From Candidatus Cloacimonadota bacterium (lineage in GTDB: Bacteria; Cloacimonadota; Cloacimonadia; Cloacimonadales; Cloacimonadaceae): a stretch of DNA of 64,000 nt. A program made the translations under genes and the position numbers. The stretch spans positions 1 through 64,000 of the forward strand of contig JAKOXG010000014.1 in assembly GCA_029781115.1 (NCBI GenBank). Reading direction: 5' to 3'. The notes under the pieces are model-generated. The model was not told the DNA's origin. It was given only the letters and a program-made list of their open reading frames with translations, and searched no databases. This document shows positions 9,169-62,840 of this stretch, one piece after another (position 1 is the stretch's first letter; every line of letters starts with the position of its first letter).

Positions 9169-9305
9169 AATATCCTCTCTTAAGATTGAGCCCTTATTCC
9201 CAAGGCCATTGTTATTCCGTTAGCCAACGAACTCAGGAGCAACCTCAGTTAATACAATATTTATTTAGGCTAAACCTGTCAACAACTTTCTCTCCTCCCC
9301 CTTGT

Positions 9306-9493
9306 CCCTTACTCACCCACCCGGAGATGCCGTGGAGATACTCGGGTTTTTTACGGGAGGCTCCGGGTAATCACCGGGAGGCTAAGTAAGGAAGGAGTGG
9401 GTGAACGGTATCTTTTCACAGGGCTCTTGCCCGCCTCCCACCTTAGACCCTCCTTACTCAAATTAAGGTGGAATTAAGGTGGCAAGCAGGGGC
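9306..9493. repeat. Interspersed repeat family A, copy 1 (two modules)
   Basis: This fills most of the 408-base gap 9169-9576. Module 1 (about 9306-9404) contains GGAGATACTCGGG, CTCCGGGTAATCACCGGGAG and GGCTAAGTAAGG. Module 2 (about 9424-9493) contains CCCACCTTA and AATTAAGGTGGCAAGCA. Both modules recur in the same order, inverted, at 22686-22865; module 1 alone recurs at 62752-62840. The ends are imperfectly inverted (CTTACTCACCCAC against GTGGGTGA). No reading frame is conserved. Confidence 0.85.
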
Positions 9494-22639: not shown

Positions 22640-22685
22640 TTTTTTTGCCCTAAAATTGGCCTCCTGAAATGCACATCCCCCACGT

Positions 22686-22865
22686 GCTCCTTGCTTGCCA
22701 CCTTAATTCCACCCTAATTAGAGTAAGGTGGGTAGCAGGCAAGAATCCAGCAAAAAGTGGTCGCTCACCCACCTCTTCCTTGCTTAGCCTCCCGGTGATT
22801 ACCCGGAGCCTCCCGGGAAAAACCCGAGTATCTCCACGGCACCTCCCTGCGGCTAAGTAAGGGCG
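22686..22865. repeat. Interspersed repeat family A, copy 2 (inverted, both modules)
   Basis: Inverted relative to copy 1. Module 2 is at about 22686-22745 and module 1 at about 22771-22865, in the same relative order and spacing as at 9306-9493. In module 1, CTTAGCC near 22783 and GGCTAAG near 22853 form imperfect terminal inverted repeats. The copy lies just after the tRNA cluster; the rest of the gap 22640-23025 shows nothing else I can name. Confidence 0.85.
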
Positions 22866-23025
22866 AGGCATGTGACATGTCCCCAAAAGGCCAAACTCAT
22901 GAAAGAATTTATCAGATTACCAAGCGCAAATCCGCGCCGCAGTCGTCTTTGGGTGAAATCCGGTAGGCACGCCAAGAGATTGAGCCCACCACAGAGCACC
23001 AGAAACAGCTGTCTACACGACCCTA

Positions 23026-36010: not shown

Positions 36011-36094
36011 GTGAAATGTAAAGAAACATTCAAAAAAGCAGAGGCTTACACGAAATATACCAAGGAGTTAGCTCTGATTAAAGCCGATGGCGTT

Positions 36095-36241
36095 GCCTGT
36101 ACGGGCGGTCGCTGAACCGCCCAACCATGTAGCCGACGGTTGCCATACCGCCTCTGCCTCACACAGTCTCGCCCCCGAAGATAACAAGCGTATCCCCAAA
36201 CAAAGCGCAGCGACTGACGGCTGACTACTGCGGCGCAGCCG
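36095..36241. repeat. Repeat family C, left copy (27-bp inverted part plus 114-bp direct part)
   Basis: Positions 36128-36241 recur as a direct repeat at 38608-38721 with few differences (shared words include GGTTGCCATACCGCC, CGTATCCCCAAACAAAGCGC and TGCGGCGCAGCCG). Positions 36095-36121 match the reverse complement of 38741-38767 at 24 of 27 bases. The direct part stops exactly next to the stop codon (36242-36244) of the enclosed gene. Confidence 0.85.
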
Positions 36242-38443
36242 CTACCTCACTAACGTCACCTTCTTACTGCTCACCTTCCTGCCATTTACCATCAGATTGA
36301 GCAGATAAATTCCGCTGGAGCACTGCCTGTTATCTGCATCCCTACCATCCCAACATGTAAACTGCTCGCCTGTTTTACCGTCATCAAGTGCGATGTTCTT
36401 CACCTTTTGGCCTTTGATGTTGTAGATAGTGATGCTGGCATTCTCTACTTTATCCAAGTTTACTTTGATATTGGTAAAAACCTTGAAGGGATTGGGATAA
36501 GCATATATCTTGAAAGCACCGTGATAGGCTTCGATGTCGGCATTAGGGCTGCCTAAACCATGAATTTCAGCCTTTACTACGCCGGTGGGCCCGGGATTCA
36601 GAAATTTCCCCGGCTGATAAAAGCAAGTATTGATACCAAGCAGATAACCTAAAACCTGGAGATCTGAATCGAGTACAAACGAATGATAAAAGTCTCTTAT
36701 TATGATATTCCCCTGTCCATCAGAGCTGCCACCCCAACCTCCATAGGTGGGCAGGCTGAGCTGTTGCACCGCAGTGGGTTGATTAGGATTGGAGATGTCG
36801 ATCACCGCACCACCGTCGTTGGCCTGCACCATCCTGTCGTCAACAATCAATGAGTGTGTACCGCTGGATGTTATCTCACTGATGAAGCTAAGAGAGTAAT
36901 CCGCTTCAATTCTGTAGAAATACATGATCTTCCCGTCATCAGTGTATCTGTCAGCCCGGATATGCTTCGGAGCATAAAAATCAAGACTGGCGCAGATGTG
37001 GGGCAGAACATTTTGTGACTGAAAAACCAGCCCAGACCCACTTATGCTATATAGGTAGATGCGCCACTCCTCATCAATATAGCCGCACAAGGCCAAGATG
37101 TCGCCGTATACCGCACCTCCTATAATACCTGCAGGCCTTGGCATTGTCCACACATTAGAGATCCCGTTATCACCAAACTCCACGACCTCAATGTTTTGAG
37201 AGATAAACACCAGTTTGTCTACGTCATGCACTGAATAGTTCTTTTCCAAGTTGCCGGTGAAACGAAAATCCAGAAATTCCTCAGCATCCAGATCAAAGAT
37301 TCTAAACCCGACAGATCCTGCCGTATAAGTTGTATACTCAGACAGTACCAGATAACGCCCTTTAACCATGGTATACAGCAAGTAACCTGATGACTCATTG
37401 ATGATCGCCAGTGGATTTAAGTTGCTGCCGAGCAGCATGGATTTATAAAATCCGGGCGCAAAGTATCCATCTGCGGTATCAAACAACTGATACATCTCAT
37501 TATCAAAGCTTGCCACGTCATGCGGCTGCCAAACGTTTGATGCAGAGCTGATGTACCTCTCTATCTGCCATACACCGGAGGCATTTTCCCCATAAACACA
37601 GGCCATGCCAGCACCATCAATCATCAAGTCAAAATTGCGCCTGATATTTGTAGAATGCAAGGTGGAAACATTGACTGATGCCGCATCAATCGAATCCAAG
37701 CGGGCAAGATAATACTCTGCCTGGGCGTTACTGTAGATGTAATATATCGAACCGTCTATCAACTTTGAGAAATGAATATTGACCTGATCCTGGGAGACAG
37801 ATGCAACATAGGCTGGATTGGCCGTCGGGGCTTCTGAGGAGTAAACAGTCCCATCGCCGCCTATGTAGATATAGAGACCATCAATGAAAAAGAAACCGCT
37901 ATATCTCTGATCAAGCTCGATTTGAGTGCGTTCCAGCAAAACCGGCTGGGAGGGATTCCGCACATCAATCATATTTCTACTACACCACTCATTGCCACCA
38001 AATGCCGCTTCCCAACTTTCATAGATAATAGTCCCGCTGGCTGCTTCAAAACAAAGTGACACAGATGCGAGTGATAAATCTGCCCCCGGACTTCTGAGCT
38101 CCAGGCTGCTCAGTAAGCTCAAACCTTGAGTAGGCTCATATTTATACACATCCAAGGTGCCATACAAAGAGATCGCATAGAAAGTGTTATCAGCACCTTG
38201 GCGTACACTGTGATAGCTTTCATCGCTATGAACGGTCTGTTCAAAGTCAATATCAGACCCATTCAGGGTAAATACTCTCGAGGTTTTGCCCATCAGGGAA
38301 ACATATTTCCCGTCCGGAAGCTCCATTACCATGTACAAAGGCGTGTTGCCGTAATCCACCCAATCAAAAGATGTATGGGCTATTTCGGCAGATAATGTCT
38401 GAAAAAAGAGCAGAGAGATAGCCAATAACGCCAGCTTGATCAT
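36242..38443 (-). CDS. Secreted beta-propeller-like protein with C-terminal sorting domain
   Basis: A 733-residue protein with signal peptide MIKLALLAISLLFFQTLSA. The ATG at 38441-38443 follows AAGGAG by six bases; the longer frame adds 23 non-signal residues. The body is made of repeated short beta segments about events and states (for example LDVYKYEPTQGLSLLSSLEL, AVIDISNPNQPTAVQQLSL), resembling LVIVD-type propeller repeats. The C-terminus (YAYPNPFKVFTNIKVNL ... ITIYNIKGQKV ... SSGIYLLNLMVNG) is the FlgD-like/Por sorting domain. No enzyme motif is seen. The gene is bracketed by repeat family C on both sides, which may mark it as a movable cassette. Confidence 0.82.
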   Translation of the reverse strand: MIKLALLAISLLFFQTLSAEIAHTSFDWVDYGNTPLYMVMELPDGKYVSLMGKTSRVFTLNGSDIDFEQTVHSDESYHSVRQGADNTFYAISLYGTLDVYKYEPTQGLSLLSSLELRSPGADLSLASVSLCFEAASGTIIYESWEAAFGGNEWCSRNMIDVRNPSQPVLLERTQIELDQRYSGFFFIDGLYIYIGGDGTVYSSEAPTANPAYVASVSQDQVNIHFSKLIDGSIYYIYSNAQAEYYLARLDSIDAASVNVSTLHSTNIRRNFDLMIDGAGMACVYGENASGVWQIERYISSASNVWQPHDVASFDNEMYQLFDTADGYFAPGFYKSMLLGSNLNPLAIINESSGYLLYTMVKGRYLVLSEYTTYTAGSVGFRIFDLDAEEFLDFRFTGNLEKNYSVHDVDKLVFISQNIEVVEFGDNGISNVWTMPRPAGIIGGAVYGDILALCGYIDEEWRIYLYSISGSGLVFQSQNVLPHICASLDFYAPKHIRADRYTDDGKIMYFYRIEADYSLSFISEITSSGTHSLIVDDRMVQANDGGAVIDISNPNQPTAVQQLSLPTYGGWGGSSDGQGNIIIRDFYHSFVLDSDLQVLGYLLGINTCFYQPGKFLNPGPTGVVKAEIHGLGSPNADIEAYHGAFKIYAYPNPFKVFTNIKVNLDKVENASITIYNIKGQKVKNIALDDGKTGEQFTCWDGRDADNRQCSSGIYLLNLMVNGRKVSSKKVTLVR

Positions 38444-38607
38444 TTTTTCTCCTTTGTTAAATTCTCTGTTGGCGAAACCATCAAATGTTGCTTTCGGGTT
38501 CTTTGAGGACACTTAATATCCACAACCTATTCTATTTTAAGTTAGATTGATCAGTGTCCGTTATTATCTTTTCACGGATGATTTCCGTCAAGCACTTTCT
38601 GGAATAT

Positions 38608-38767
38608 TGTAGCCGGCGGTTGCCATACCGCCGCTGCCTCACACAGTCTCGCCCCCGAAGATAACGAGCGTATCCCCAAACAAAGCGCAGCGACTGACTA
38701 CTGACTTCTGCGGCGCAGCCGTTAGCGCCCCCCAGAGAACGGCGATTCAGCGACCGCCCGGACAGAC
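38608..38767. repeat. Repeat family C, right copy (114-bp direct part plus 27-bp inverted part)
   Basis: The mirror partner of 36095-36241: the direct repeat is at 38608-38721 and the inverted element at 38741-38767. A minus-strand frame across it (38532-38813) is rich in Arg and Ser and is not a believable gene. Confidence 0.85.
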
Positions 38768-38803: not shown

Positions 38804-39075
38804 CAAAAATCAATATTTGACCTCATAACAAAATACTGTCACCCATAACCGGCTTCTTTGACCCCTCTTAAATGCCCATTTCATGCGGCCTCCCCACCCC
38901 GCCCCTGCTGCTCTCCTGCTCATCGAGTAAGTAAGTAGTAAGAAAGCAGGCAGTTAGGAGGAAGAGCGTCGTGGAGAAAAAGACTGCTTTGGGAGGGTGG
39001 CCAACCCATGCCAAAAATCAAATATTGCACAAGCCTCTGGATTATGCAAACAAATTAAGGTATAAAACGAGCACT
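38804..39075. repeat. Repeat family B, copy 1
   Basis: About 272 bases matching, in inverted orientation, 56631-56907. Shared words in order include AAAATCAATATTTGAC, ACCGGCTT, GACCCCTCT, AATGCCCATT, CTGCTGCTCTCCTGCTC, GGCAGTTAGGAGG, GGGTGG and ATGCAAACAAATT. With repeat C it fills the 711-base gap 38444-39154. No reading frame is conserved between copies. Confidence 0.85.
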
Positions 39076-39096
39076 TTTTCAAAAGCAAAAGAATGA

Positions 39097-56630: not shown

Positions 56631-56907
56631 AACAAGTGCCCATTTTCGGCCTGAATTTGTTTGCATATACCAGAATATCACGCAAATATTGACTTTCAGC
56701 ACCGGTTGACCACCCTCGTGACATCCCCTTTGCCCTCATTAGGCTCTGCCTCCTAACTGCCTCCTTTCTTACTCCTTAGCTGTTCGAGGAGCAGGAGAGC
56801 AGCAGGGAAGGAGTAGGGAATCCGCATGGAATGGGCATTTGAGAGGGGTCACAAAAGCCGGTAATGCACAACCATATTATGCGCATGAGTCAAATATTGA
56901 TTTTGGG
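56631..56907. repeat. Repeat family B, copy 2 (inverted)
   Basis: Reverse-complement partner of 38804-39075. Differences are scattered point changes and small gaps, as expected for an old repeat. It occupies most of the gap between infC and the terminator at 57031; the remaining bases 56527-56630 show only a C-run (56587-56594). Confidence 0.85.
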
Positions 56908-57099: not shown

Positions 57100-58485
57100 T
57101 CATCTCAATACCGTCACCTTCTTGCTGACCTCTCCACCTTGGGTCTTGATGCGGATGAGGTAGACACCGGCGGGAACGGCACGGTTGTTTCTATCTTTGC
57201 AATCCCAATTGTAGAGATATTGGTCGCTGCGTGTTTCGCTAACTGTCAGACTGCGCACCAGTTGGCCTTTGATATTGTAGACTTTGGCCTCGACAGGGAC
57301 GGAAGCGCTGCTCTTGCTGAGGCTGATATTGACATTGCCTCTGGCGGGGTTGGGGTAGGCGGAGACTAAAGCTTGTGGGGCTGCGGTGGGGTCGTCGCTG
57401 TGGGTGGGGCCATAATATTCCCAAGTGTAATCTTGGGTTGAAGTTAGGGTGCTAAACCAATACCCCTCTCTTCTAACCTTCTTGGTCAACATCCAGTTGT
57501 CGTCGTAAATGTAGTTATCATTGTAGACATCATCTGTATCATCATGGAATTTACTGACAGTCACCTTATGATAGTCATCGGTATAAAAGTAGTTCATGGT
57601 AAAGGTCGATTCAGGCTCAAAAGCCCCGTCCACACCGTCTACCTGTCCGATGAATCTGCTTTGCATTAGAGGGAAGTGCATCTGATGAGCGGTTACGTAT
57701 TGATAATAGGTGTCGGTTCTCTCCCACGGCTCTTCGCTCCAGCTTTTCCACACCTTGGATAGATACCTCACTTCGTTGCTATCAAAGAAGTTTTTCTGGA
57801 TAGTACGATAAACCCCATCCCTGGTGTAAGTGCTGTCCGGCAAAGAATGATTGCCCCACGTCTGCCAGAGCTCATACACAGTATGTCCGTTCCTCTTCTT
57901 TTCAGAATGAACGAGCCGGTTTTGGGCATCATAATCGTAGGTAGCGGTCTCACTGGGTGCCGTCTCACTTGTCCCACTATGATATGTGACCACCAGAGCC
58001 AAATTGCCATTGTCATCATATCCGTATACAGTCCTGCGAATGCCATCTTCAGTGCCATCACTCTCGTAATAGGCTGTCTTTTGTTCAAGTAGCTTATCCT
58101 GTAGGTTGTAGGTGTAGGTTGTGATATATTGGAGTACGTAGCCACCTTCCTCCCAATAATAATCCCAATCTTTGTAATAATAGCTTTCAATCACCTTACG
58201 ATAATCGTCAAAGTCCTGATACTCGTATATCTGCTTTGAATATGTGGTAAAGTCTATGTTATCATGACATGATTGGATCAGAGTGAGGCGATTTGGGATA
58301 ACCTCATCATAATAGTAATGAAAAGTGGTATCTTCATAATAGTACATACAAGAGCTACCACTGCAGTAGTATGTTTTTCTAAACTGCCCCATGGGCTCAG
58401 GGCCGATATACTCATCACCGAGGTTGACGATGGCGCTGAGGCTGACCGTCAGGGTCAAGAGCAGCAGCATGGTTACTCGTTTCAT
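57100..58485 (-). CDS. Secreted Tyr-rich YD-repeat-like protein with sorting domain (paralog 1)
   Basis: 461 residues with signal MKRVTMLLLLTLTVSLSA, then the paralog motif NLGDEYIGPEPMGQFRK. The body is rich in Tyr, Asp and Trp with YD-like repeats (YTYNLQDKLLEQ, YGYDDNGNLALVV, YDYDAQNRLVHSE) similar to RHS/YD proteins, and a shared WQTWGNHSLPDST. The C-terminus (YPNPARGNVNISL, VYNIKGQLVRSL, AVPAGVYLIRIKT) is the FlgD-like/Por sorting domain. Paralogs lie at 58498 and 61218. No toxin or enzyme domain is visible, so it is probably an extracellular binding or matrix protein. Confidence 0.82.
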   Translation of the reverse strand: MKRVTMLLLLTLTVSLSAIVNLGDEYIGPEPMGQFRKTYYCSGSSCMYYYEDTTFHYYYDEVIPNRLTLIQSCHDNIDFTTYSKQIYEYQDFDDYRKVIESYYYKDWDYYWEEGGYVLQYITTYTYNLQDKLLEQKTAYYESDGTEDGIRRTVYGYDDNGNLALVVTYHSGTSETAPSETATYDYDAQNRLVHSEKKRNGHTVYELWQTWGNHSLPDSTYTRDGVYRTIQKNFFDSNEVRYLSKVWKSWSEEPWERTDTYYQYVTAHQMHFPLMQSRFIGQVDGVDGAFEPESTFTMNYFYTDDYHKVTVSKFHDDTDDVYNDNYIYDDNWMLTKKVRREGYWFSTLTSTQDYTWEYYGPTHSDDPTAAPQALVSAYPNPARGNVNISLSKSSASVPVEAKVYNIKGQLVRSLTVSETRSDQYLYNWDCKDRNNRAVPAGVYLIRIKTQGGEVSKKVTVLR

Positions 58486-58497
58486 GATCTCTTCTCC

Positions 58498-59853
58498 TTA
58501 TTTGATCACTGTGACCTTCTTATTGATCTCACCGCTGTTGGTCTTAATGCGGATGAAATAGACGCCAGTGGGAACGGCATGGCTATTGCTATCTTTGCAA
58601 TCCCAGTTGTAGAGATATTGGTCGCCTCGTGTGTCACTCACTTCCAAACGGCGCACCAGTTGCCCCCTGATATTGTAGACCTTGGCCTCTGCGGGGGCGG
58701 GAGAGCTGCTCTTGTTGAGGCTGATATTGACACTGCCTCTGGCGGGATTGGGGTAGGCGGTGACCACAGCTTGTGGGACTGCGGTTGGGTCGTCGTTGGG
58801 AGTGGAGCCGTAGTATTCCCAGGTGATGCTTTTTGAGCTAACACCATAGGCATGATTACAATAATATTGGGTCAACAACCAGTTATCATCATAATCGTAT
58901 TTTTTATAGGGGGATGTGTCTGAACCTGAAATGATCGTGTGATAGTCATCGTTATACTGGTAGTTAAGCAATGTAGCTGATGGGGGAATGAAGGGATCAT
59001 TGGGATCATCCAGATAATTACCGGCTTCATAGATTGTTATGGGAAATGCCATCCCGTGTGCAATCGTGTAAAGGATGTATTTATCACTTCTTACCCATGA
59101 ACCGGATCCCCTGAATCTACATATTGAGCTGGTATAATACATCTCTCCATTGTCATCAAAAAGCCTCCTGTGACTCTCCTGCCGGTACAGTGCATCTGGA
59201 TCATTATTGATGATATGGGTGCTATCCGGCAGGGAGTGATTGCTCCAAGTGTGCCAAGTGGTCTGCCGCAGCTCTTGATTTGCAACTACTCGGATGTTGA
59301 CAGCACGATTTTGTGCATCATACTGTGTCGTCGTCACCCTGTATGGTATTGTCTCACTGACGTTAGTCTTATACTCTGCCTGAAGCACCAGATTGCCTCG
59401 TTCATCATAGCTATAGAGTATCCTGTCCACGTTAATGTTTTGATAATTCGCTGTTCTGTGATACTCCAGAATCCTGTCCTGATGATCATACTTGTAAACA
59501 CACACGTAAAGAAGGCTACAACCCTGTCCGACATGCCATCTGTAGCAAGTTTCAGTCACCTGATGATAACCATCGAATTCGGCGTATTCATAATACAGAT
59601 TAGTGCCGTAATCATCAAAATCGCCGGTAGAATAAGTGAGAATAGAATCAAGACGGGTGGGGATAAACTCGTTGTAATAATAGTAGGAAGTTGAGCCGTA
59701 ACTGGGGCCATCATAATTATGGCTGGACTGACTCTGAGATAGCTTTCTAAACTGTCCCATGGGCGTGAGACCGATATAATCATCGCCGAGGTTGACGATC
59801 GCCCCCAAGCTGATAGCGAGGGTCAATAGCAGCAGAATAAGTGCTTGTTTCAT
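58498..59853 (-). CDS. Secreted Tyr-rich YD-repeat-like protein with sorting domain (paralog 2)
   Basis: 451 residues, 12 bases upstream of paralog 1 and clearly homologous along its length: signal MKQALILLLLTLAISLGA, motif NLGDDYIGLTPMGQFRK, YD-like segments (YKYDHQDRILEY, YSYDERGNLVLQAEY, TTQYDAQNRAVNIR), WHTWSNHSLPDST, and the C-terminal VYNIRGQLVRRLEV with AVPTGVYFIRIKT. Dinucleotide-level similarity in the 3' halves of the three genes is high enough to suggest recent duplication or gene conversion. Function as for paralog 1. Confidence 0.82.
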   Translation of the reverse strand: MKQALILLLLTLAISLGAIVNLGDDYIGLTPMGQFRKLSQSQSSHNYDGPSYGSTSYYYYNEFIPTRLDSILTYSTGDFDDYGTNLYYEYAEFDGYHQVTETCYRWHVGQGCSLLYVCVYKYDHQDRILEYHRTANYQNINVDRILYSYDERGNLVLQAEYKTNVSETIPYRVTTTQYDAQNRAVNIRVVANQELRQTTWHTWSNHSLPDSTHIINNDPDALYRQESHRRLFDDNGEMYYTSSICRFRGSGSWVRSDKYILYTIAHGMAFPITIYEAGNYLDDPNDPFIPPSATLLNYQYNDDYHTIISGSDTSPYKKYDYDDNWLLTQYYCNHAYGVSSKSITWEYYGSTPNDDPTAVPQAVVTAYPNPARGSVNISLNKSSSPAPAEAKVYNIRGQLVRRLEVSDTRGDQYLYNWDCKDSNSHAVPTGVYFIRIKTNSGEINKKVTVIK

Positions 59854-61217: not shown

Positions 61218-62591
61218 TCACTTGATCACCGTCACCTTTTTGTTTACCTCACCGCTGTTGGTCTTGATGCGGATGAGATAGACTCCGGCGGGGACAGCAC
61301 GGTTGTTTCTATCTTTGCAATCCCAGTTGTAGAGATACTGGTCGCTGGTCTTTTCGCTAACTTCCAAGCGGCGCACTAATTGTCCCTTGATGTTGTAGAC
61401 TTTGGCTTCTATGGGAGCTGATCCACTGCTTTTGCTCAGGCTGATATTTACCACACCTTTGGCGGGGTTGGGGTAGGCGGCGACCATAGCTTGTGGGACT
61501 GCGGTGGGATCGTCGTTGGGAGTGGAGCCGTAGTATTCCCAAGTGATGGTTCGGATATAAGGTTCACCGCCATAGCTCTGAGTAGAGTTTGTCAGCAACC
61601 AATTGTCATCATAGGTGCATTCTTGGGTATACGTGCTCCCGACTATGGATATGTTTACCGAGTGATAGTCATTGCTGTAATCAAAGTTTGTTACCAATAC
61701 ACGGTGTGGCTCGTAGGGATCATTGGGATCACTGACGTAGCTGTAAGTTCTCTGCTTGGTATTGGGAAATGCCATCCCGTCTACAAGCGTGTAAGTGATT
61801 TGCATATCGTATCTTTCCCACACAATCTCCGCATCGTCACTCGCTGGACGGTATTTGTAAAACACGACAGAATGGTTGCATTCCTCATTTTCATCGAAAT
61901 GGCGTAGAATGATAGTCTCTTGTGTATAGTGGCTGGGATGATAAAGGATATGGGTACTATCCGGCAGGGGATGGTCGCTCCAGGTGTTCCAACTGGTCTG
62001 GAACACGCTTTGATACTGAGTTGTTTGGCTATAGATCTCACGATTTTGCGCATCATACTCGTAGGTGGTCACATCACGGGGATTATCCGCATCTTCATGA
62101 ACATTGTATTCCTTTTTAAGTATCAGGTTGCCCTTTGCATCATACTCGTAAATTGCCTTGTTGACACCACCGTAGTAGCCTTCTGGCAGACAAAACTCGA
62201 GAAGCCTGTCTTGGGAATCATACTTGTAGTAACCGGATACCGTGGGAACCTGATAGTTGACCACAAACCAAGGATAGCCATTGAGTGTCATCTGGTAGTA
62301 ATCATCAAAATCCGTGTATTCGTAAAACATTTTCAGGCCTTGATTACTGGCATTCGGCGCGTGATAGTGGACGGAATCGACACGTGTGGGAACAGACTCG
62401 TTGTAGTAATAGTTGACGAAGGTTTCTCCACCGATGCTGTAGTAATTGTAATCAGTGAAGTCAGAATAGTAGCAGGACAGCTTTCTAAACTGCCCCATCG
62501 GCGTGGGGCCAATATACTCATCGCCGAGATTGACAATCGCTCCAAGGCTTGCAGCCAAGACTAAAAAAAACATCAAAGTTACTCTTCTCAT
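61218..62591 (-). CDS. Secreted Tyr-rich YD-repeat-like protein with sorting domain (paralog 3)
   Basis: 457 residues with signal MRRVTLMFFLVLAASLGA and the paralog motif NLGDEYIGPTPMGQFRK. YD-like segments are YKYDSQDRLLEF, YEYDAKGNLILKKEY and YEYDAQNREIYSQ; WNTWSDHPLPDST and the final sorting domain (VYNIKGQLVRRLEV, AVPAGVYLIRIKT, VNKKVTVIK) are shared. First gene of the cluster in the direction of transcription. A family A repeat lies 161 bases upstream. The variable middle regions differ much more than the ends between the three copies. Confidence 0.82.
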   Translation of the reverse strand: MRRVTLMFFLVLAASLGAIVNLGDEYIGPTPMGQFRKLSCYYSDFTDYNYYSIGGETFVNYYYNESVPTRVDSVHYHAPNASNQGLKMFYEYTDFDDYYQMTLNGYPWFVVNYQVPTVSGYYKYDSQDRLLEFCLPEGYYGGVNKAIYEYDAKGNLILKKEYNVHEDADNPRDVTTYEYDAQNREIYSQTTQYQSVFQTSWNTWSDHPLPDSTHILYHPSHYTQETIILRHFDENEECNHSVVFYKYRPASDDAEIVWERYDMQITYTLVDGMAFPNTKQRTYSYVSDPNDPYEPHRVLVTNFDYSNDYHSVNISIVGSTYTQECTYDDNWLLTNSTQSYGGEPYIRTITWEYYGSTPNDDPTAVPQAMVAAYPNPAKGVVNISLSKSSGSAPIEAKVYNIKGQLVRRLEVSEKTSDQYLYNWDCKDRNNRAVPAGVYLIRIKTNSGEVNKKVTVIK

Positions 62592-62751
62592 TTCTCATCT
62601 CCCATAAGGTAGTTACCACATTTGATGTGCACGATATGTGCCAATTGTCCAATTATTTACTGCGACTTGGAAGAGCCGGGAACAGAAAGCTGCAACATAC
62701 TTACCTCTTGAGCGATTGTTAAGAAATCCGTCTTCTGCCTGGCCCTCCATT

Positions 62752-62840
62752 ATCCGCAGGGAGATGCCGCGGAGATACTCGGGTTTTTCCCGAGAGGCAC
62801 CGGGTAATCACCGGGCGGCTAAGCAAGGAAGAACAGGGGA
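62752..62840. repeat. Interspersed repeat family A, copy 3 (module 1 only)
   Basis: Same orientation as copy 1: GGAGATACTCGGG, CGGGTAATCACCGGG and GGCTAAGCAAGGAAG are all present; module 2 is missing. An internal CTCGGG-TTTTT-CCCGAG hairpin is perfect here. The rest of the gap 62592-62874 shows no gene. Confidence 0.8.

Follow-up and report, generated by a model that had tools for sequence, protein, structure and literature searches.

A gene enclosed by repeats raises the question of whether it moves with them. In a Candidatus Cloacimonadota genome (GCA_029781115.1), a single gene for a predicted secreted protein is enclosed twice over, by a pair of direct repeats and, outside these, by a pair of inverted repeats, within the 64,000-nt stretch of contig JAKOXG010000014.1 analyzed here (the window). 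The original prediction for this locus likened the arrangement to a mobile or shuffling cassette that lacks a transposase. Here, we ask what these repeats are, whether they define a unit that moves, and where the gene and its 3′ end come from.

Repeats flanking the gene

Sequence comparison of the two direct-repeat copies gives a length of 117 nt with 110 of 117 positions identical; their presence and coordinates are as originally predicted, and the length is not (114 bp had been claimed). The outer inverted repeats, described beforehand as 27 bp with 24 matching positions, are indeed seen as such by eye (36095–36121 against 38741–38767), and a repeat search returns 25 nt of them at 92% identity. 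The similarity of both pairs is far beyond chance. The outer arms, like the start of each direct repeat, are hairpins. At least 40 matches to the 117-nt unit occur in the genome (E ≤ 0.001), at 71–97% identity and with varying lengths, and the other long matches to it do not exceed 88% among the matches listed. A scan of the 64-kb window places type A and type B hairpins, defined below, in the 36095–38767 region only, two on each side of the gene. The features of the locus are collected in Table 1.

Table 1. Repeats, gene, and 3′ module at the locus, in window positions
Feature	Position	Strand	Basis
REP type B, GTAC-tagged (GTACGGGCGGTCGCTGAACCGCC); left inverted-repeat arm	36099..36121	+	Exact 23-mer match
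REP type A, GTAG-tagged; start of left 117-nt unit	36129..36152	+	Pattern matches
Left BIME-like 117-nt unit: REP A, conserved spacer, and terminal inverted REP	36128..36244	+	94% identity to right copy
Short inverted GTAG hairpin (GTAGCGGCTGCGCCGC) whose foot includes the TAG stop of the gene	36230..36245	-	Sequence; folds as 5-bp hairpin
3′ module: last 85 codons (YPNPF...KVTLVR, Por_Secre_tail / T9SS-type) and stop	36242..36499	-	PF18962; tail identity
Predicted secreted, all-beta propeller-like protein, 733 aa from ATG	36242..38443	-	Signal-peptide-like N terminus by eye; C-terminal sorting tail
Right 117-nt unit, with REP A at 38609-38632	38608..38724	+	Sequence comparison
REP type B, opposite orientation; right inverted-repeat arm	38741..38763	-	2 mismatches to type B

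The repeats are REP palindromes in BIME-type clusters

The 117-nt units open with GTAGCCG(G/A)CGGTTGCCATACCGCC, and in these units, as in the left outer arm, a GTAN foot is joined to a GC-rich hairpin, which is the layout of a REP element. Genome-wide, the type A pattern has 47 copies (≤1 mismatch) and the type B 23-mer of the left arm has 81 (≤3 mismatches); the reversed-pattern control returned 0 in each case. Among five congeners, the type B 23-mer is present in two, with 94 copies (G005) and 28 copies, and has 0 in the other three. The hairpin stem covaries: across 26 variants, 92% of cells are paired and 13 are double-changed, compared with a shuffled mean of 4.1, and 0 of 500 shuffles reach 13. 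When the long units were folded as single DNA sequences, the results were no better than those of shuffles, and the hairpin assignment therefore draws on covariation and copy number instead. The 133 distinct REP copies carry GTAG (51), GTAT (42), and GTAC (34) among their feet, and 98 of them lie outside ORFs of at least 100 aa, some of which are possibly spurious. That type B mostly carries a GTAC foot and not the canonical GTAG counts against a plain REP account. Clusters of opposite orientation are found both at this locus, where the right cluster consists of a REP A (+) and a REP B (−), and in arrays in L031, L032, and L092. The marks of REP and BIME elements, namely a hairpin with compensatory changes, a tetranucleotide foot, a dispersed distribution at high copy number, and clusters of opposite orientation, are all present. 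The repeats at this locus are GTAG/GTAC-tagged REP palindromes in two BIME-type clusters.

Published REP/BIME systems (Di Nocera 2013, PMC3733652; Nunvar 2010, PMC2817692) share with this one a 20–25-nt hairpin, a GTAG-type foot, high and mostly clustered copy number, opposite orientations, feet that give TAG stops, and RAYT genes within REP arrays. The present elements differ in that many feet are GTAC or GTAT and in that some units have a longer conserved spacer of about 70–90 nt. Proteobacteria, Cyanobacteria, Chloroflexi, and the PVC group are among the lineages for which PMC3733652 describes GTAG repeats.

Two other identities for the repeats were considered and rejected. A structured RNA was discarded, as Rfam matches at a meaningful score here are to tRNA only. 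A repeat specific to secreted-protein genes was likewise discarded; REPs occur at loci of widely differing kinds, and the suggestion that the repeats go with such genes did not hold.

According to the original prediction, the left repeat terminates precisely at the gene's stop codon, and it does: its last base, 36244, is the last plus-strand base of CTA, the TAG stop of this minus-strand gene. Read on the gene strand, the end is GAGGTAG followed by CGGCTGCGCCGC, an inverted short hairpin that has the TAG inside its GTAG foot. The repeat ends at the stop because the GTAG foot of the inverted REP contains TAG. For the repeats that it describes, PMC3733652 states that flanking ORFs often obtain a TAG stop from GTAG REP termini, and the overlap is thus an already known REP property. 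Two further exact overlaps between a stop and a REP occur in the genome, one of them at L092 3241–3244, where a perfect type D REP begins at the stop of a 798-aa gene.

RAYT-like genes lie within REP arrays

Two genes elsewhere in the genome each encode a 221-residue protein that matches PF01797 (Y1, IS200-like transposases) above the cut-off. The nearest NCBIfam model for both is REP_Tyr_transpos (NF047646; E = 1e-19 and 3e-17), whose equivalog cut-off of 80 bits both miss (70.9 and 63.1 bits), and we therefore term these genes RAYT-like rather than certified members. Both proteins contain NHVH as the HuH motif and YIVNNP as the motif of the catalytic Tyr, and the one on L031 also contains WQ. 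Each gene is located inside a dense array of REP-like hairpins, and the array on L031 includes several copies of the type B REP that forms the left inverted-repeat arm at our locus. On L032 (G000:C19, positions 1–2070), the RAYT gene is within long GTATGGTCGCTTGCCATAGCGACC repeat arrays that alternate with other short palindromes. The NHVH, WQ, and YIxNNP signature and the position within REP arrays resemble those of TnpA-REP (RAYT) subclass 2.4 (PMC6006769), from which these proteins differ in length (221 aa compared with about 194 listed) and in falling below the NCBIfam equivalog cut-off.

Among the congeners, three have neither a RAYT match nor type B REPs, and G002 has both. The correspondence is imperfect, as G005 has many REPs without a RAYT match. 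These REPs are probably spread by an enzyme of the RAYT type whose gene lies elsewhere in the genome, an activity that is predicted for the two genes. The RAYT family is thought to move REPs, not a gene that lies between REPs.

Presence of the gene varies, but no moving unit is delimited by the repeats

The gene sits between tRNA-Lys and a redox-protein (C_GCAxxG) gene, with metK also in the neighborhood. In the congener G005, the same metK–tRNA-Lys–C_GCAxxG redox gene order is found and the 2.2-kb gene is missing. Two further congeners, G003 and G004, have other genes beside the tRNA, and in G001 and G002, the contig ends near the tRNA. No full-length homolog of the gene was found in the five congeners; the best homolog among 30 relatives, in G016, is ≈31% identical over its whole length, and weaker members of the family to which the body belongs occur in G021 and G011. 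Synteny in all relatives with no variation, the outcome named beforehand as contrary to mobility, is therefore not what the comparison of congeners returned, and gene gain or loss stands.

The gain or loss is real, and the unit that moved is not defined by these repeats. DNA homology to G005 extends up to window position 36049, returns at 38847 for ≈75 nt that fall within another dispersed repeat, and is found again from the redox gene onward. The G005 site thus holds no precise excision scar, since homology stops at 36049 and resumes only at 38847. It contains two type B/F REPs, and the 117-nt unit was not found there.

Were the gene the cargo of a nonautonomous mobile cassette, a recombinase supplied in trans would act on the inverted or the direct repeats. 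The flanking of the gene by both repeat types, its absence from the G005 site and from the other congeners as a full-length homolog, and the presence of a RAYT in trans fit this scheme, but these repeats are also found, alone and in arrays, at dozens of sites elsewhere and do not form matched pairs that enclose a single cargo; the site in G005 is not a clean one-repeat scar, and no target-site duplication is apparent. A mobile cassette is accordingly highly improbable. Rather than the ends of a transposon, the outer inverted repeats are a pair of ordinary REPs that face opposite ways, and neither element-specific terminal inverted repeats nor a precise empty site, by which a transposon would be recognized, was found. 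A transposon- or integron-type cassette was rejected on the same grounds, its arms being dispersed REPs and its empty site imprecise. The cassette originally predicted thus holds in its presence and absence among congeners and, as described below, in a swapped 3′ module; as a repeat-defined unit it does not, because the repeats are dispersed REPs without a tie to the cargo.

Two other dispersed repeats were seen in the window. One, of ≈250 nt, lies at 38829–39079 (+) and 56631–56881 (−), is present in at least 40 genomic copies, most of them 74–84% identical, and also occurs in the G005 empty site. Its core is strongly conserved, and short inverted repeats lie close to either end (TCAATATTTGACC ... 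AAAATCAAATATTG); the copy at 38829 has no Rfam match, and the family may represent a MITE or some structured element. A second family, of about 100–140 nt, has three window copies (9303–9445, 22680–22870, and 62736–62838).

The gene may have arrived by RecA-dependent recombination at the BIMEs, a variant of the explanation that we favor which specifies its route: an incoming gene accompanied by one 117-nt unit would recombine with a resident unit, so that direct repeats result, and the reverse reaction would delete the gene. The two flanking units are in direct orientation and, at 94%, more alike than the other long matches listed (88% at most), and the GC3 of the gene body (0.50) is below that of its neighbors (0.58–0.70). 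Such a low GC3 is, however, common to other tail genes in the window (0.52–0.56), the G005 empty site has type B/F REPs but no 117-nt unit, and local REP duplication explains the similarity of the units equally well. We regard this route as possible but doubtful.

The 3′ end of the gene belongs to another family

An AlphaFold model of the 733-aa protein is all-beta and of low confidence (pLDDT 58). Its C-terminal tail matches PF18962 (Por_Secre_tail) with E = 4e-8, and both PF18962 (33.9 compared with a cut-off of 27 bits) and TIGR04183 (40.8 compared with 23 bits) are exceeded; 96 tail matches of this type occur in the genome. In tail sequence and C-terminal position, the protein resembles known T9SS-type sorting domains (PF18962 / TIGR04183). 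It differs from them in that its tail subgroup is homogenized over unrelated or highly diverged bodies and is REP-capped. By domain, this is a T9SS-type sorting tail protein, and export by the type IX route is predicted.

The body and tail differ in origin. Relative to the G016 homolog, the body is 32% and the tail 37% identical, as expected for an old pair. The last 85 codons, in turn, are 72–84% identical at the amino acid level to the tails of beta-helix genes in the same genome and in relatives (79–84% within the genus), whose bodies reach 12–18% identity to that of the boxed gene in forced alignment (15–18% in its own genome) and yield no BLAST match to it outside the tail. The similarity sets in abruptly at the YPNPF codons and runs through to the stop. 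A propeller-like family supplies the body of this chimeric gene, and an unrelated beta-helix family its tail. This tail undergoes concerted evolution within the genome: three beta-helix paralogs of the same genome have bodies 29–47% identical and tails 92–94% identical at third positions, whereas between orthologs in two species (bodies 74% identical), tail third positions are only 67% identical (Fisher p = 1e-5 against the own-genome paralogs).

Eight genes with this tail type were found in the genus, and in every one the terminal GTAG runs straight into a REP-like sequence; in a sample of about 22 other tail genes from the genome, 0 have this ending. Because the eight genes share ancestry, this amounts to a pattern and not an independent statistical test. 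The REP-like sequences after these stops are of several types, some of them degenerate. Where this tail occurs in two other genera, it closes with GATAG, and no REP is recognizable there. The capping, together with the third-position identity of the own-genome tails, would fit a link between the REPs and tail exchange, in which RAYT nicking at GTAG stop feet stimulates gene conversion that homogenizes or swaps secretion tails. Against such a link, the eight genes are not independent, the REP types differ, ordinary RecA conversion suffices, and a REP-free trio of neighboring paralogous tail genes in the window (57100–58485, 58498–59853, and 61218–62591, all on the minus strand) likewise shows greater similarity between tails than between bodies, if to a lesser degree. 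REPs are therefore not required for the likeness of tails, and we consider the link very improbable. The broader proposal that REP insertion at GTAG stops marks, and RAYT nicking promotes, exchange of tail 3′ ends between unrelated secreted-protein genes is very doubtful; if true, REPs would be hotspots for re-tailing surface proteins.

Rearrangement of surface-protein domains in Porphyromonas gingivalis (PMC5266723) is comparable as modular exchange among secreted tail-bearing proteins. There, however, the adhesin domains vary, whereas here, the tail itself is exchanged.

Discussion

Taken as a whole, the locus is very probably one at which REPs, spread by RAYT enzymes, form two BIME-type clusters that happen to bracket a lineage-specific, re-tailed gene. 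At least two REP types, GTAC- and GTAG-tagged hairpins of ≈23 nt, would have been dispersed through the intergenic DNA of the lineage by RAYT (TnpA-REP) enzymes encoded elsewhere in the genome. On the left, a terminal inverted REP would have come to abut the gene, its GTAG foot supplying the TAG stop. Each 117-nt unit has the other as its closest relative, which suggests that the pair arose by local duplication, or by conversion that spanned the gene. We infer the manner of the gene's arrival and the order of events: the gene would have been gained in this lineage, or lost in relatives, between tRNA-Lys and the redox-protein gene, and its 3′ end would have been replaced by the tail-coding end of the beta-helix family through ordinary homologous exchange.

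REPs and RAYTs are already known, and the tail exchange is a modest addition. These results remove a false lead toward a mobile cassette and document an apparent REP/RAYT system in a lineage rich in tail-bearing secreted proteins. An 85-codon tail that is homogenized within one genome across highly diverged bodies and grafted onto another family is a clear example from nature of surface proteins that are re-tailed in modular fashion.
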